Below are positions 1 through 56,582 of a stretch of DNA of 64,000 bases, in pieces. Origin of the DNA: Xylanimonas ulmi (GTDB lineage: Bacteria > Actinomycetota > Actinomycetes > Actinomycetales > Cellulomonadaceae). A program made the position numbers and the translations under genes. A model generated the notes under the pieces. The model was not told where the DNA came from. It saw nothing but the letters and a program-made list of their open reading frames with translations, and did not search any database. Within the stretch, counting starts at the first letter, position 1. Every line of letters starts with the position of its first letter. The DNA lies in the NCBI RefSeq assembly GCF_004216535.1, contig NZ_SGWX01000001.1:682001-746000 (forward strand). The letters run 5' to 3'.

Positions 1-661
1 CCCGGAAGTAGGAGCGCAGCGAGGCGTCGATCTGCTCGGGCCGGTAGACGTTGCCGTGCGCCAGCCGTCGGCGCAGTTGCTGGGGGGACAGGTCGACCAG
101 TTGGATCTGGTCGGCGTCGCGCACCACTTGGTCAGGGACGGTCTCCTGCTGTCGCACGCCGGTGATCGCCTCGACGTCGTCGACCAACGACGCCAGATGC
201 TGCACGTTGACGGTGGTGATGACGTCGACGCCCGCGTCGAGCAGGTCGTGCACGTCCTGCCAACGCTTGGCGTGGCGCGACCCGGGCGCGTTGGTGTGGG
301 CGAGCTCGTCGACGAGCGCGACCTGCGGCGCGCGCGCGAGCACCGCCGCGATATCCATCTCAGTCAAGGTGGCGCCGCGGTAGGCGACCTCGCACCGCGG
401 TACGACCTCCAGGCTCCCGACCTTGGCCGCGGTGGCCGCGCGCTGGTGGGTCTCGACGAGGCCGACGACGACGTCGGTGCCGCGGGCTCTGCGCCGCTCG
501 GCCTCGTCGAGCATCGCGTAGGTCTTTCCGACGCCGGGAGCGGCGCCGAGGTAGACCGTCAGCCGCCCGCGTCTCGCGCGCGGTGGCGTCGCCTGCCCTG
601 GTCCGTCCGCGCTCGTGCCGTGCCCCGCCGGGCTCTCGGGCGGCGCGTCGTTCGTGCCCAC
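1..661 (-). CDS. kdpD: Sensor histidine kinase KdpD, N-terminal part (cut by window edge)
   Basis: Only the first 220 residues are present; the C-terminal part lies beyond position 1. They form the cytoplasmic KdpD domain: a Walker A loop GAAPGVGKT at about residues 39-47, and the hallmark VDELAHTN at about 118-124. The stretch ends at the conserved AHGNVY...YFR segment that precedes the Usp-like domain. KdpD senses K+ limitation or osmotic stress and phosphorylates KdpE, which activates kdp. The GTG start is 14 nt beyond the kdpC stop with no clear Shine-Dalgarno, so translational coupling to kdpC is likely. kdpE is expected just outside the window. Confidence 0.93.
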   Translation of the reverse strand, partial: MGTNDAPPESPAGHGTSADGPGQATPPRARRGRLTVYLGAAPGVGKTYAMLDEAERRRARGTDVVVGLVETHQRAATAAKVGSLEVVPRCEVAYRGATLTEMDIAAVLARAPQVALVDELAHTNAPGSRHAKRWQDVHDLLDAGVDVITTVNVQHLASLVDDVEAITGVRQQETVPDQVVRDADQIQLVDLSPQQLRRRLAHGNVYRPEQIDASLRSYFR

Positions 662-675
662 GGTGTGATCGTGCC

Positions 676-1311
676 TCACCCGAGCCCGCGCAGGGCGAGG
701 TTGACGGCCAGCACGTCGACCCGCGGCTCGCCGAGGACGCCGAGCGTGCGTCCCTGGGTGTGCTGTTCGACGACCCGCCGCACGACCTGCGGGTCCAGGC
801 CGCGCGCAGCGGCGACCCGCGCCACCTGCAGTTGCGCGTACGCGGGCGAGATGTCGGGATCGAGGCCTGACGCGGAGGCCGTGACGGCGTCGGCGGGCAC
901 GTCCTGCGGCGCCACGCCGTTCTCCGCGGCGACGGCGGCTTGGCGCTGCGCGATCGCGCTGACCAGGTCGGGGTTGTTCGGTCCCAGGTTGGAGCCGCCG
1001 GAGGCGAGGGTGTCGTAGCCGTCGCCCGCGGCGGAGGGGCGGGCGTGGAGCCACTCAGGGCCGGTGAACCTCTGCCCGACAAGTGCCGAGCCGACGGCGC
1101 CGGCGGGGGTTGTGGTGCGCTGGCCCGAGGCGTCGAGCAGGGAGCCGTGGGCCTGCCACGGGAAGACGGCCTGCGCGACGCCGGTCACGGCCAGCGGATA
1201 CGCCAGGCCGAGCACGACGGTGAACGCGAGCAGCACGCGCGCTCCGGCCAGCGAGTGCCGCCACAGAGCGGCGAGGCCAGAGGCGACGGTGGGGGTGGGC
1301 GTGGTGGTCAT
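676..1311 (-). CDS. kdpC: K+-transporting ATPase subunit KdpC
   Basis: 211 residues, slightly longer than the roughly 190 usual for the family. One N-terminal membrane segment (about residues 23-46) is followed by an extracytoplasmic domain. That domain carries the family-typical GSALVGQ and the asparagine-rich GGSNLGPNNPDL stretch. KdpC is the small subunit that stabilises the KdpA/KdpB complex and assists K+ binding. It starts 3 bp after the kdpB stop and is followed by kdpD, in the standard kdpFABCD order. Confidence 0.97.
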   Translation of the reverse strand: MTTTPTPTVASGLAALWRHSLAGARVLLAFTVVLGLAYPLAVTGVAQAVFPWQAHGSLLDASGQRTTTPAGAVGSALVGQRFTGPEWLHARPSAAGDGYDTLASGGSNLGPNNPDLVSAIAQRQAAVAAENGVAPQDVPADAVTASASGLDPDISPAYAQLQVARVAAARGLDPQVVRRVVEQHTQGRTLGVLGEPRVDVLAVNLALRGLG

Positions 1312-1314
1312 GGG

Positions 1315-3480
1315 TCAGACTCCGGGGATCAGGGAGACGAGCAGATCGAGGAGCTTGATCCCGACGAACGGGGCGATCAGGCCGCCGACGCCGTAGATCA
1401 GCAGGTTGCGGCGCAACAGCACGTCAGCCGCCGCGGGTCGGTAGCGCACGCCGCGCAGGGACAGCGGGATGAGCGCGACGATGATCAGCGCGTTGAAGAT
1501 GACGGCCGAGAGGATCGCCGACTGCGGCGAGGACAGTCGCATCACGTTGAGCGCGTCGAGCTGCGGGAACAGGCCCACGAACATCGCGGGCAGGATCGCA
1601 AAGTACTTGGCGACGTCGTTGGCCACCGAGAAGGTCGTCAGGGCGCCGCGGGTGATGAGCAGCTGTTTGCCGATCTCGACGATCTCGATGAGCTTGGTCG
1701 GGTCGGAGTCGAGGTCGACCATGTTGCCGGCCTCCTTGGCTGCCGACGTGCCGGTGTTCATGGCCACGCCCACGTCCGACTGCGCGAGGGCGGGCGCGTC
1801 GTTCGTGCCGTCGCCGGCCATGGCGACCAGTCGCCCGCCGGTCTGCTCGCTCCTGATGTACGCGAGCTTGTCCTCGGGAGTCGCCTCGGAGAGGAAGTCG
1901 TCGACACCCGCCTCGGCCGCGATCGCCTGCGCCGTGAGCCGGTTGTCGCCCGTGACCATCACCGTGCGGATGCCCATCGCGCGCAGCGCGTCGAACCGCT
2001 CGCGCATGCCCTCCTTGACCACGTCCTTCAGGTGCACGACTCCCAGGACCCGGGCTGGGTGCTGGCCGCTCTGCTCGGCGACCACGAGCGGGGTGCCCCC
2101 GCTGCGCGAGACCTCCTCGACGAGCTCGTCGAGCCGCGCCCGCGTGTCCTGGGGCAGGATCGCGCCGGTCGAGCGCAGCCATCCCCGCACCGCCGAGCCG
2201 GCGCCCTTGCGCAGCCGATACGGCTCACCGTCGAGGTCGAGGTCCACGCCGGACATGCGGGTGTGGGCGCTGAACGGGACGAACACGGCGTCGGCGGGCA
2301 ACGCGGCCCCGGGGCCGACGGCGTCCTCGACCAGGTCGACGATCGATCGGCCCTCCGGGGTGGCGTCGGCGAGCGACGCGAGCCGCGCCGCGGCGGCGAG
2401 CTCAGACTGCGTCACCCCGCCGACCGGCTCGAGCCTCGCGGCACGCCGGTTGCCGTAGGTGATGGTGCCCGTCTTGTCGAGCAGCAGGATGTCCACGTCT
2501 CCGGCGGCCTCGACCGCGCGCCCCGACATCGCGAGCACGTTGCGCTGCACGAGCCGGTCCATGCCTGCGATGCCGATCGCGCTCAGCAGTGCGCCGATCG
2601 TCGTCGGGATGAGGCACACGAGGAGGGCGACGAGCACCAGCACGGGCTGTCTCTGCCCCGAGTACACGGCGAACGGCTGCAGCGTGGCCACGGCCAGCAG
2701 GAACACGATCGTCAACGTGGTCAGCAGCACATTGAGCGCGATCTCGTTGGGTGTGCGCTGCCGCTCGCTGCCCTCGACCAGCGCGATCATCTTGTCCACG
2801 AAGGTGGACCCGGCTGCCGCGGTGATGCGCACGACGATCCGGTCCGAGAGCACCACGGTGCCGCCGGTCACGGCGGACCGGTCGCCGCCGGACTCGCGGA
2901 TCACCGGCGCGGACTCCCCGGTCACGGCGGACTCGTCCACGGACGCGACACCCTCGATGACGTCGCCGTCCCCCGGGATCGTCTCGCCGGCCTCGACCAC
3001 GACGACGTCCCCTACCCGCAGCGACGCCGACGGCACGACGGCGGTCTCCAGCAGGTCCAGGCGGCTGCTCGCAGTCAGGGTGTCCTGCCCGGCCAGCACC
3101 TTGCGCGCCGTCGTCTGCCGCTGCGTGGCACGCAGGCTCGACGCCTGCGCCTTGCCGCGCGCCTCGGCGACGGACTCGGCGAGCGTGGCGAACAGGACGG
3201 TGAACCACAGCCAGACCGTGACCCACCAGGCGAAGACCGCCGGCTGGAGGACGGCCAGCACGGTTGTGAACAGCGCCCCGACCTCGACGACGAACATCAC
3301 CGGCTGATGGCGCAGCGCGCGTGGATCGAGCTTGCGCACCGCGCCTGGAAGGGCGGCGCGCACCTGCGTCCAGCTCAGGGCGCGGCCCGCGCGCGCCCGC
3401 GGTGAGCGCTGGCGGGCGCCGACGTCGGCGCGGCCGGCGAGGGCTGGTGTGGTCTGGGCGGCGATGGCGGTGCGGTTCAC
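1315..3480 (-). CDS. kdpB: K+-transporting P-type ATPase subunit KdpB
   Basis: 721 residues. This is the catalytic subunit that hydrolyses ATP to drive K+ import. P-type hallmarks are in order: TGES in the actuator domain (about residue 190), the phosphorylation motif DKTGTIT (about 335-341) after the membrane helix with [10 protein letters not shown], and [10 protein letters not shown] in the hinge. The N-terminus is about 40 residues longer than in E. coli and rich in Ala/Arg, as is common in actinobacteria. Its start overlaps the kdpA stop by 4 bp, which implies coupled translation. Confidence 0.98.
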
Positions 3481-53703: not shown

Positions 53704-54810
53704 CTACGGGGCGTCCTCCTCCGGCGACGGCGCCGGGGCGGCTGGCGTGGGGCGAGGCGCCTCGCCGTCGTCCGGGCGCTCGCGCAGGTGTCCGACGACG
53801 TCGCGCAGCATGACCACCAGGGGAGCGGACAGCGTCGCGCCGAGCAGGCCGGCGAACACGGTGCCCGCGACGGTCGAGCCGAGGTTGACGATGGGGTGCA
53901 GGCGCAGCCGATCGGAGGAGAGCTTGGTGAGGATGAGGGTCTGCAGCAGGTTCTGCATCACCAGGATCACGCCGAGCAGGACGAGCGCGTGGACCGGGCC
54001 GCGCGACCCGAGCGCGATGAGCACCGCGAACGCTCCGGAGAAGATCGCTCCGAGGAACGGGACATAGGAGGTCACGAAGGTCACGAGCCCGATCGAGAAC
54101 GCCAGCGGCACGTCCATCAACGCGGCGGCGAGCGCGATGAGGACCGCCGCGATCAGGTTCGAGAGGGTCATCGCGCCGAAGTAGCGGCGCAGCGTGATCG
54201 TGGCCTCCTCGACGACGTCGTGGCCTGACGTCGCGCCGATCGCGGTGTACCGCATGACGAAGCCCTTGACGCGGGCCCAGTCCGCCAGGATGTAGAACAG
54301 GAAGAACACGGCGATGAACGTCCCCATCGCGAACGCCGCCGCGCCTGAGAACACGCTGCCGAACAGCGACGCGATCCCGCCGCTGATCGCCTGGGTCGCC
54401 TCGCCCAGGTCGACCACCGACAGGTCCACCGCCGCGCCCGCGAACTGCACCTCAAGCGAGGCGAGCTCCGTCAGGCCGACGGTCAGGCGGTCGACGATCT
54501 CCGTGGACTGCTCGATGACGCCGACGACGGTGACCCACACCGCGACGCCCACCACGACGGCCAGCGCGACCAGCACCAGTGACGCGCCGATCCCGCGCGG
54601 CAGGCCGCGCCGTTCGAGCCAGTCGACCACCGGGTGCAGCAGGACACCCAGCACGACCGCGACCACCAGGGGGACCGCGAGGCCGCTGAGCATCGACACG
54701 GCCGAGTAGACGACGACCACCGCGGCCGCGATGCCCACCACGGCCCACCCGACGCGGCCAAGGCGCAGCACGCGCTCACGCAGCGGCGCTCGGTGGCTGT
54801 TCTTCGGCAA
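53704..54810 (-). CDS. AI-2E family transporter
   Basis: 368 residues from the TTG at 54810, which has AAGGAG seven bases upstream; the ATG codons at 54843 and 54840 have no ribosome site. Eight or so membrane segments: a pair at the N-terminus (VGIAAAVVVVYSAVSMLSG, LVVAVVLGVLL), the conserved RGLPRGIGASLVLVAL, LFYILAD, and the C-terminal FVTSYVPFLGAIFSGAF and LHPIVNLGSTVAG. Family members export AI-2 (TqsA) or act as Na+/H+ antiporters. It follows the riboswitch-led orphan gene by 140 bp with no strong terminator between them. Confidence 0.9.
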   Translation of the reverse strand: MPKNSHRAPLRERVLRLGRVGWAVVGIAAAVVVVYSAVSMLSGLAVPLVVAVVLGVLLHPVVDWLERRGLPRGIGASLVLVALAVVVGVAVWVTVVGVIEQSTEIVDRLTVGLTELASLEVQFAGAAVDLSVVDLGEATQAISGGIASLFGSVFSGAAAFAMGTFIAVFFLFYILADWARVKGFVMRYTAIGATSGHDVVEEATITLRRYFGAMTLSNLIAAVLIALAAALMDVPLAFSIGLVTFVTSYVPFLGAIFSGAFAVLIALGSRGPVHALVLLGVILVMQNLLQTLILTKLSSDRLRLHPIVNLGSTVAGTVFAGLLGATLSAPLVVMLRDVVGHLRERPDDGEAPRPTPAAPAPSPEEDAP

Positions 54811-54950
54811 GGACGCTCCTTCGATCGTGCGTCCGAGCATCATCGCCCGAGCACACCGATCTCGCCCCGCCCGCCGACGCGACCCGTCGCGCGACGAGGC
54901 TCATAGGGCTCGGCGGAGGCGTGGCGGGCCGCGCCCGGGGGAGCGTTCCG

Positions 54951-55268
54951 CTACCGCGACCCGGCCGGCCGCCGGATCACATCGTCGTCACGGCCTGCGC
55001 GGGGGACCAGGTAGAAGCCGTCGGGGGTGTCGGGGTCGTAGAGGACGACGACGCCGCGCTCGGCGAGGTCGCCCAGCCAGGAGTCGAGCCGGCGGACCTC
55101 CAGCGCCGAGAGCGGGAGGCTCGCGCGCCGTCTGCTCTCCAGGCGCAGCATCGCGAGCGGGTATTGCCCACGGTGCTCCTCCTTGACCTGCCACGGGATG
55201 AGGTCTGCGTCGCGGCGGCTCGCCGGAACGTCGTGGGGCTCGTTGCGTCGAGGGGTGCTGTGCGTCAT
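54951..55268 (-). CDS. 105-residue orphan protein behind a SAM-type riboswitch
   Basis: 105 residues from the ATG at 55268, with GGAGG before it. It begins MTHSTPRRNEPHDVP and is hydrophilic and Arg-rich. The compact core (LIPWQVKEEHRGQYPLAML, then LPLSALEVRRLDSWLGDLAERG, then VVVLYDPDTPDGFYLVPR) ends in DDDVIRRPAGSR. No signal peptide, membrane segment or known motif is seen. I do not recognise the family. The leader at 55346-55433 reads as a SAM-binding riboswitch, so expression should follow S-adenosylmethionine. A link to methionine or SAM recycling is inference. Confidence 0.7.
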   Translation of the reverse strand: MTHSTPRRNEPHDVPASRRDADLIPWQVKEEHRGQYPLAMLRLESRRRASLPLSALEVRRLDSWLGDLAERGVVVLYDPDTPDGFYLVPRAGRDDDVIRRPAGSR

Positions 55269-55273
55269 CTGCG

Positions 55274-55308
55274 CCTCCGTGGAGGGCTCGCCCCGCCCGA
55301 CGGCGGGG
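55274..55308 (-). promoter_or_regulatory. Expression-platform hairpins of the riboswitch
   Basis: On the minus strand a 7-bp stem CCCCGCC/GGCGGGG (55291-55308) is followed by a small CCTC-CACG-GAGG stem (55274-55285) that covers the Shine-Dalgarno of the 105-residue gene. Upstream, GTCAGCC/GGCTGAC (55309-55328) forms another stem. This suggests translational control by occlusion of the ribosome site; the actual switching was not modelled. Confidence 0.5.
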
Positions 55309-55345
55309 GTCAGCCCGGCTTGGCTGACGCTGTGGGGGCGTCGAC

Positions 55346-55433
55346 CCGGGTCTTCTCCGGAGGGCACCGTGTCGGGCGACGCGGTTGCCGTCAGCCCACG
55401 TCCGGAGGCGTGCGGGCTGAGCTCGTGACCTGG
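55346..55433 (-). promoter_or_regulatory. SAM-I/IV-clan riboswitch aptamer
   Basis: On the minus strand the RNA starts GGTCACGAG and ends GAAGACC, closing P1 (GGTC/GACC, extended by CC/GG across one mismatch). P2 is TCAGCCC/GGGCTGA with an inner ACG/CGT helix and loop CCTCCGGA. Then comes the conserved GGCAACC, P3 (ACCG-GTC/GAC-CGGT) and GGTGCC. The P2 loop TCCGGA can pair with TCCGGA at 55356-55361, the pseudoknot of this clan. These features match SAM-I/SAM-IV and its actinobacterial variant. Confidence 0.78.
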
Positions 55434-55438
55434 CCGGG

Positions 55439-55467
55439 ACGGTAGAGGACGCGTCGGCGCAGGTCAA
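55439..55467 (-). promoter_or_regulatory. Sigma-70-like promoter of the riboswitch transcript
   Basis: TTGACC (55467-55462) and TACCGT (55444-55439), 17 bp apart on the minus strand. A start about seven bases further falls at the first bases of the riboswitch P1 stem, which supports both calls. From 55468 to 55733 I see only a short CGGGGG/CCCCCG hairpin (55541-55558) and no gene. Confidence 0.65.
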
Positions 55468-55733: not shown

Positions 55734-56582
55734 ATGTCGCCCGCCTTCGACAACGACACCATCGCCCAGGTGGCGAGCGACCTGCGCGACCTGCGCATGG
55801 GCGCGGGCAACCCGACGCTCGAGGCTCTCGCCCACCGCACGGGCGTGTCGAAGACCGTCCTGTCGGACGCGTTCGCCGGCAAGCGCCTGCCCAGCGAGCG
55901 CACGGTCACGGCCGTCGTCGGGCTGTTCGGCGGCGACGTCGCCTCGTTCGCCGCTCGGCGGGCCGCGCTCGAGGCGAACGTCCGACTCCCGGAGGCGCTC
56001 GCGGCGATGGCCGCAGGCGCGCCGTCCGGGGACGCCGCAGCGCCCGAGCGCGCGCGCCGGACCGTGAGCGCGGTCGCCGCGACCTGGCTCGCCGTGGCGG
56101 CGGCCGTGGTCGGCGCCGCCGTCGGCGGGTGGGGTGTCCACCTCGCCGCCGGCCCGGCCGGCGCCGCGGCGGCCGCTGCCGACCAATCGCAGGCCCCGGC
56201 GGTCTCCGCCGAGGCGCGCATCGCGGTGACCACGGGGCAGGACCCCGCCCTGACCGACTGCGTGAGCGACGCCGCGGTCGCCGCCGCCGAGACGCGCGCG
56301 AACGACACCCTGCTGGAGATCGTCTGGTCGGACGCGTGCCAGGCGGGGTGGGCGCGCATCACGCGCTACGACGGCAAGGCCGCGGGGAACCTCGTCTCGG
56401 CGAGCATCTTCCGCCAGACCGGGCCAGAGGCGGACGACCGGCAGGACACGACCGAGCCGGACGCCCAGAGCGCCTACACCACGCTGCTGGTGCGGCCCAC
56501 GCCGGACACCCGGGTGTGCGCCGTCGGCGAGATCACCGTGGACGGCGAGCACATCAGCCTGGGAGATCCGATGTGCCTGTGA
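55734..56582 (+). CDS. HTH-domain membrane protein (DUF2690-like)
   Basis: 282 residues from the ATG at 55734. The N-terminal XRE-type helix-turn-helix (about 15-60: LEALAHRTGVSKTVLSDAFAGKRLPSERTV) is followed by one membrane segment (about 120-142) and an extracytoplasmic C-terminal domain. That domain has three or four cysteines (LTDCVSDAAV, SDACQAGWARI, RVCAVGEI, MCL), matching DUF2690. Such one-protein HTH-TM-outside proteins occur widely in streptomycetes and relatives; their function is unknown and may be signalling. Confidence 0.85.
   Translation: MSPAFDNDTIAQVASDLRDLRMGAGNPTLEALAHRTGVSKTVLSDAFAGKRLPSERTVTAVVGLFGGDVASFAARRAALEANVRLPEALAAMAAGAPSGDAAAPERARRTVSAVAATWLAVAAAVVGAAVGGWGVHLAAGPAGAAAAAADQSQAPAVSAEARIAVTTGQDPALTDCVSDAAVAAAETRANDTLLEIVWSDACQAGWARITRYDGKAAGNLVSASIFRQTGPEADDRQDTTEPDAQSAYTTLLVRPTPDTRVCAVGEITVDGEHISLGDPMCL

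Follow-up and report, generated by a model that had tools for sequence, protein, structure and literature searches.

A putative SAM-IV-type riboswitch of a distinct subtype in front of a free-standing Stoperator-domain gene and other uncharacterised genes

SAM riboswitches control methionine and sulfur genes, and those of the SAM-IV class usually, though not necessarily, stand before such genes. The Stoperator domain is known from immunity repressors of phages. In the accessible part of PMC9283540 it comprises residues 75–181 of a mycobacteriophage repressor, and neither this domain nor the helix-turn-helix (HTH) domain alone showed specific DNA binding. The SAM-IV riboswitch of M. avium is placed before an O-acetylhomoserine sulfhydrylase gene in the portion of PMC3774663 that was available. 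In the literature searched, where subscription papers were mostly outside coverage, we found neither a description of the riboswitch subtype presented below nor a paper joining SAM-IV and Cellulomonas; the available text of PMC10986025 mentions a riboswitch and an immunity repressor, unrelated to each other.

In this work we analyzed a 64-kb stretch of DNA (the window). The Rfam SAM-IV model (RF00634) matched its minus strand at 55430–55311 end to end (model positions 1–116) with 48.7 bits and an E-value of 1.5e-5, computed over 64 kb and 4227 families; the gathering cut-off is 38 bits, and no other RNA family was found in the window by the Rfam scan. A first-pass annotation made from the sequence had described here an element of the SAM-I/IV clan with a P2, GGCAACC, a P3, GGTGCC and a possible TCCGGA/TCCGGA pseudoknot, and had proposed scoring it with covariance models. 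All these parts were found, and the score exceeds the threshold. P1, P2 and GGCAACC/GGTGCC can be read in the sequence, and the conserved core with the ligand pocket (GGTC..GAG, GGCAACC, GGTGCC, GAnGACC) is kept. Both pseudoknots of SAM-IV, one formed by the P2 loop and one by the P3 loop with the 3' tail, are possible with five to six pairs each. Pseudoknot 1 (55356–55406, minus strand) would join TCCGGA at 55406–55401 to TCCGGA at 55361–55356. Pseudoknot 2 (55313–55377, minus strand), an addition to the first description, would join GCCCG of the P3 loop (55377–55373) to CGGGC of the 3' tail (55317–55313), a position that agrees with the published SAM-IV structure as far as the accessible part of PMC6890682 goes.

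For a SAM-IV the window copy is divergent, as its 48.7 bits indicate, and its leader is not predicted to fold unusually stably (folding z-score only -0.89). Two further SAM-IVs of the same genome reach 94 and 80 bits with Rfam, and the genes next after them encode aminotransferase class V (PF00266) and luciferase-like monooxygenase (PF00296) domains. Behind the window aptamer there is no sulfur or methionine gene; a Stoperator-domain gene is found instead. As judged by sequence and structure, the window element is a SAM-IV-type riboswitch of a distinct subtype, with SAM as its putative ligand.

The putatively controlled gene (54951–55268, minus strand; ATG at 55268, stop at 54951) encodes 105 amino acids and had been called an orphan. 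This description no longer holds. Although the Pfam and NCBIfam searches gave no match, the protein matched PHROG 3929 ("transcriptional repressor") with an E-value of 1.2e-29, and tblastn matched 172 Streptomyces phage records, of which the 40 listed carry repressor annotations (immunity, transcriptional or putative). In the PDB, a profile made from 18 homologues found the mycobacteriophage immunity repressor 7r6r/7tz1 (E 1.1e-6, chain residues 88–173). An AlphaFold2 model built with 25 sequences (pLDDT 79, pTM 0.67) gave 7r6r_A as the sole meaningful Foldseek match (probability 1.00, TM 0.61 by query, rmsd 2.7, E 1.3e-3, 28% identity; next probability 0.06). The N-terminal HTH that precedes the Stoperator domain in phage-type homologues (L034, L067) is absent from the 105-aa frame and the C-terminal domain is present; we therefore class the product as a free-standing domain and not as a repressor. 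From sequence profiles and the predicted fold, the gene is that of a free-standing Stoperator domain of an actinophage-type immunity repressor. The first-pass remark that the gene has no methionine link was borne out, a Stoperator domain following the SAM-IV aptamer. As a separate observation, several genomes of the family, including that of the window (G000:C1:3205836), hold frames of 606–665 aa in which an HTH and a Stoperator-like domain are joined to downstream aminotransferase-like sequence (L022, L023, L025, L031 and L032, from 1501 onward); on ORF reading these may be fusions or overlaps.

A model of the subtype (R2) was built from 15 leaders; the window sequence is one of them and scores 72.7 bits with the model. 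In a structure drawn from these same 15 sequences, 90.8% of cells were paired, compared with a shuffled mean of 82.9% and with 38–43% in slid controls, and 12 of the 31 pairs had changed on both sides (7.2 in shuffles). Pseudoknot 1 was paired in 100% of cells in the aligned leaders, and three of its five pairs had changed on both sides. One of five covariation measures, the number of further pair types, was not above the shuffles (18 vs 16.5; 139/500). Complementarity of loop and tail for pseudoknot 2 was tested in 56 aptamers, equivalent to 40 distinct loop/tail sets: the mean longest helix was 4.78 against 3.95 in shuffles, and none of 2000 shuffles reached the observed value. Only three contiguous pairs were present in 12 of the 56 copies, several of them from the PWGWR group introduced below.

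Searching 221 genomes of the family with R2 gave 59 matches of at least 70 bits in 49 genomes; this cut was picked after a gap had been seen (the next match has 66.3 bits), with strict filters and few candidates per genome. When the subtype was aligned with other SAM-IVs, the columns kept in at least 95% of the 93 rows were common to both groups and comprised GGTC..GAG, CGGCAACC, GGTGC and GA.GACC. One P3 pair is swapped, being G-C in all 55 subtype rows vs C-G in all 38 other SAM-IVs (the latter being high-scoring Rfam matches), and positions in P2 and P3 are fixed differently in the two groups.

Genes behind the aptamers were classified for 56 of the 59 R2 matches (those in G212, G130 and G154 were left out). 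Fourteen encode a Stoperator domain, 26 a CxxC...CxxC protein (23 by pattern; L123, L134 and L136 by eye), eight a PWGWR protein and eight belong to none of these groups. The last set includes one methionine-related gene (L143), four unclassified ones (L114, L117, L194, L196) and three loci where no convincing adjacent gene was found (L146, L179, L181). Pfam, PHROGs and NCBIfam yielded nothing convincing for the CxxC, PWGWR and remaining target proteins. Aptamers preceding Stoperator and CxxC genes are up to 98.8% identical; alignment of these predicted elements shows near-identical aptamers of the subtype paired with unrelated genes. By these sequence comparisons, the aptamer is a distinct SAM-IV subtype that precedes at least three unrelated uncharacterised families, namely CxxC...CxxC, Stoperator and PWGWR. 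The earlier statement that a SAM-regulated gene without assigned function would be new is supported and extends beyond this one gene, control by SAM being putative.

Some arrangements deserve separate description. At L097 (9345–9635, plus strand) the subtype precedes a Stoperator gene and at L282 (4685–5296, plus strand) a CxxC gene, in what on gene order appears to be a matching site with a methionine-synthase-type gene on one side and a NERD-UvrD helicase on the other. Two subtype riboswitches (L117 and L119; G009:C1:283060 plus and 288727 minus) lie on opposite strands 5.6 kb apart, one before a 151-aa unclassified gene and the other before a longer Stoperator gene, with a type I restriction-like gene (HSDR_N) between them. 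Two SAM-IVs (L110 and L116; G034:C1:849258 minus and 849559 plus) face away from each other across about 190 bp, one on each strand, before genes that read as monooxygenase-like and flavin-reductase-like. The gene of L143 (G137, 182–1390, minus strand) encodes a cobalamin-independent methionine synthase catalytic domain (PF01717) and is the only methionine link observed for the subtype.

The peculiarities of the subtype could also mean that it recognises SAH or a different adenosyl compound in place of SAM; the scarcity of methionine-related genes behind it would then be accounted for. The pair swapped in every row lies near the pocket, P2 and P3 positions are fixed differently, and the targets are unlike those of the high-scoring SAM-IVs of the genus, as judged from the genes downstream of the 22 SAM-IVs of that genus. 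We consider such a ligand unlikely: the conserved core is the same as in other SAM-IVs (pocket residues according to the accessible part of PMC6890682), the change in P3, from C-G to G-C, is compensatory, and the subtype copy of L143 stands before a methionine-synthase-like gene, which fits SAM as the ligand.

Homologues of the 105-aa protein were found in 23 of 150 genomes of the window's family. A SAM-IV above the cut-off lies beside 12 of 30 homologue places, the window included; this count covers places with a locus, six further places being left out of the scan. The first-pass annotation had asked whether leaders of homologues keep the paired bases, and in other genera they do, by Rfam matches and by the alignment of 15 leaders. 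Inspected by eye, the SAM-IV-linked genes mostly have no HTH (window, L008, L010, L013, L014, L016, L017, L020), and one is visible in L006, L015 and L019/L030. Stoperator genes stand singly, neighbours across 11 SAM-IV/Stoperator loci are common mainly to near relatives, and ORF reading around these 11 loci revealed no prophage block. An ALIL pseudoknot (RF01497, 81.5 bits) at L012:896–1012 (minus strand) lies close to a phage-type repressor homologue that has no riboswitch.

Beyond the family, R2 gave no match of at least 100 bits in 394 genomes of the class (best 82.9). The exact core pattern of the subtype occurs in 15 of these 394, the window's own genome included, and the reversed-pattern control gave 0 among the rows listed; one match (G553/L311) was rejected as not being an aptamer. 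Confinement of the subtype to the window's family was also rejected, since sporadic members occur elsewhere in the class. By eye, their downstream genes are PWAWR (L304), CxxC (L306–L309) or similar to L114, whose product has 102 aa (L310, L312, L313); those of L305 and L314–L317 could not be assigned. P1 of class members shows compensated changes (GGTC/GACC, GCTC/GAGC, GATC/GATC). Two genomes of another family (G498 and G324) share the window's 39-base P3/junction core without a difference and have an L114-like gene downstream of it.

Phages were considered as carriers of the riboswitch, and this idea was rejected. The pattern GGCAACC..GGTGCC..GAAGACC occurs in 23 IMG/VR contigs, which we judge to be chance matches, none having GGTCAnGAG in the 50 bases before the match; the exact subtype core was found in 0 IMG/VR contigs, blastn of the aptamer against phages gave no match, and R2 gave 0 matches at 58 IMG/VR phage-repressor loci (52 distinct contigs, six duplicated). 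The window protein, used as a single query, had no relative in IMG/VR and no match in plasmids, and two CxxC proteins had no match in phages.

To describe the neighbourhoods, PADLOC was run on 139 proteins from the surroundings of 20 subtype loci and, as a control, on 137 of the 138 proteins from 20 shifted places, one protein of 1448 aa being left out for its length. The controlled gene itself was dropped at 18 of the 20 loci; the CxxC gene of L265 was kept under the distance rule and the gene of L273 was not called. NERD+UvrD proteins made up five of the 139 (four of the five loci are named: L266, L268, L274, L282) and were absent from the 25 of 39 control families listed, i.e., at most one in the control. 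The same 25 of 39 families contained no counterpart of the cytosine methylase found at L271 or of the BrxA/BrxB pair that stands next to a CxxC gene at L275. The control matches listed were mostly to the kinase-type PD-T4-6 and to the mad3, mad8 and AriA models, mad3 and AriA being equal in both sets. Among the Stoperator genes, those of L097 and L099 have NERD helicases nearby, that of L016 adjoins a type I restriction-like protein and that of L010 lies 3.6 kb from a cytosine methylase (the last two being loci L092 and L095); a transposase-type rve domain is near L265. Since related genera share sites, the NERD loci are not independent and the defence context is treated as weak; defence or mobile neighbours at some loci give a weak hint. 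Separately, at L276 (G140) the surroundings of the riboswitch and its CxxC gene include a phage-type integrase, an excisionase-like HTH_17 gene and an ArdC-type gene.

Mobile contexts of this kind (the integrase and ArdC-type gene of L276, the rve domain of L265) would suit a relic, that is, a decaying leader and a truncated repressor gene from a mobile element with no present function. The gene is longer in two relatives within the window's genus (L006, L016), whose N-terminal parts the window gene lacks, so that the latter could be a shortened remnant; the relative L035 has an in-frame stop. This reading appears improbable, given that Stoperator genes lacking the HTH follow this aptamer repeatedly, across several genera (L008, L010, L013, L014, L017, L020), that two genomes of another family share the identical 39-base core, and that the promoter-like box, Shine-Dalgarno sequence and open reading frame of the window are all intact.

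That promoter is putative. It lies at 55439–55467 (minus strand) and consists of TTGACC (55467–55462), a 17-nt spacer and TACCGT (55444–55439), the boxes being located as first annotated, with TACCGT ending 8 nt upstream of the first aptamer G (55430); a strict sigma-70 scan does not report it. A TANNNT box 7–9 nt upstream of the aptamer is present in 24 of 55 distinct subtype leaders and at other distances within 0–19 nt in three of 55, which suggests that the transcript would begin at about the first base of the aptamer. A divergent gene at 55734–56582 (plus strand) encodes an HTH and DUF2690 and starts about 270 bp from the riboswitch promoter.

A possible expression platform at 55291–55328 (minus strand), as read from the sequence, would consist of two hairpins: GTCAGCC/GGCTGAC (55328–55309), which would compete with P5 and pseudoknot 2, and CCCCGCC/GGCGGGG (55308–55291), which has no T run. 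A terminator scan of the window leader found no T-tract terminator. The Shine-Dalgarno sequence GGAGG (55274–55278, minus strand) is complementary to two stretches of the aptamer, CCTCC of the P2 loop and CTCC of the 3' strand of pseudoknot 1, and in the predicted leader fold its region pairs with the pseudoknot-1 strand, a pairing that could equally mean an ON switch. In 16 of 56 subtype relatives the start codon lies 7–14 nt 3' of the aptamer end, where pseudoknot 2, once stabilised by the ligand, would impinge on or mask the Shine-Dalgarno sequence and turn translation off; in the window it lies 42 nt 3' of the aptamer, behind the two hairpins.

Taken together, we regard it as probable that a SAM-IV-class riboswitch of a distinct subtype controls the single Stoperator-domain gene, most likely by blocking ribosome access at high SAM. 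The ligand would be SAM, as the retained core suggests. With abundant SAM, access of ribosomes would be blocked, control at the level of translation and in the OFF direction being inferred; when SAM falls, the 105-aa protein would be made. Having no HTH, it is probably unable to bind DNA alone, and its target might be a partner molecule, for example RNA polymerase or a repressor, which is a guess.

The next gene in line (53704–54843, minus strand; PF01594, E 7.6e-38) encodes an AI-2E family transporter. It is on the same strand, 107 nt downstream of the 105-aa gene, and the first-pass annotation proposed a SAM-recycling or export link, in which an ordinary SAM-IV would serve the transporter as part of an operon. 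Orthologues in four congeneric genomes are 72–81% identical, and within 12 kb around them no SAM-IV core or Stoperator gene was found (0/4), so that we judge the transporter gene to be outside the unit. At 10 of the 11 other SAM-IV/Stoperator loci no AI-2E homologue is present within the surrounding 18–19 kb; the exception, L095, has an AI-2E gene (PF01594) beyond an opposite-strand gene, 29% identical to that of the window. The AI-2 link was rejected on these grounds, and an operon of this kind is extremely improbable.

Phages destroy SAM to defeat methylation-based defence. A wider reading, tentative and rather doubtful at present, is that the subtype, scattered over Actinomycetes, forms a SAM-starvation regulon for conflict with phages or mobile DNA, switching on small exchangeable proteins when SAM falls. 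Aptamers and genes would be reassorted, as in the near-identical aptamers with unrelated proteins and in the exchange of a Stoperator gene for a CxxC gene at the apparently matching site of L097 and L282. The repertoire would comprise free-standing phage-repressor domains, CxxC...CxxC and PWGWR proteins, and the signal would be the drop in SAM caused by a phage that destroys it to disarm methylation-based defence. Since the subtype mostly precedes phage-repressor-like or other unexplained small proteins, it would tie the SAM level to genes outside the methionine and sulfur pathway and would supply the first regulatory input for dozens of uncharacterised genes. It also offers a handle on whether cells sense the loss of SAM as a signal.

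Comparison with known systems places the subtype as follows. With RF00634 it shares P1, P2a/P2b with an internal loop, P3 with GGCAACC/GGTGCC, P5, the GA-GACC junction, a score above gathering and two pseudoknots at the same positions. It differs in its lower score, in the swapped P3 pair adjoining CC/GG, in pseudoknot 1, which is CCUCC/GGAGG or UCCGGA/UCCGGA, and in standing mostly before uncharacterised genes. The metagenomic SAM-I/SAM-IV variants belong to the same superfamily but, according to the accessible part of PMC2864571, reportedly have no P2 internal loop, whereas the leaders described here have one. The window protein resembles the Cluster A mycobacteriophage immunity repressor (7r6r/7tz1) in fold and sequence profile; the latter, however, is a phage protein with an HTH, whereas the former is a Stoperator domain alone, behind a putative riboswitch. 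It also matches repressors of the Streptomyces Likavirus type (PHROG 3929), with 57–63% identity over 83–84 residues among the 40 records listed of 172, but those carry an HTH (L067), and R2 matched at 0 of the 58 IMG/VR repressor loci (52 distinct contigs).
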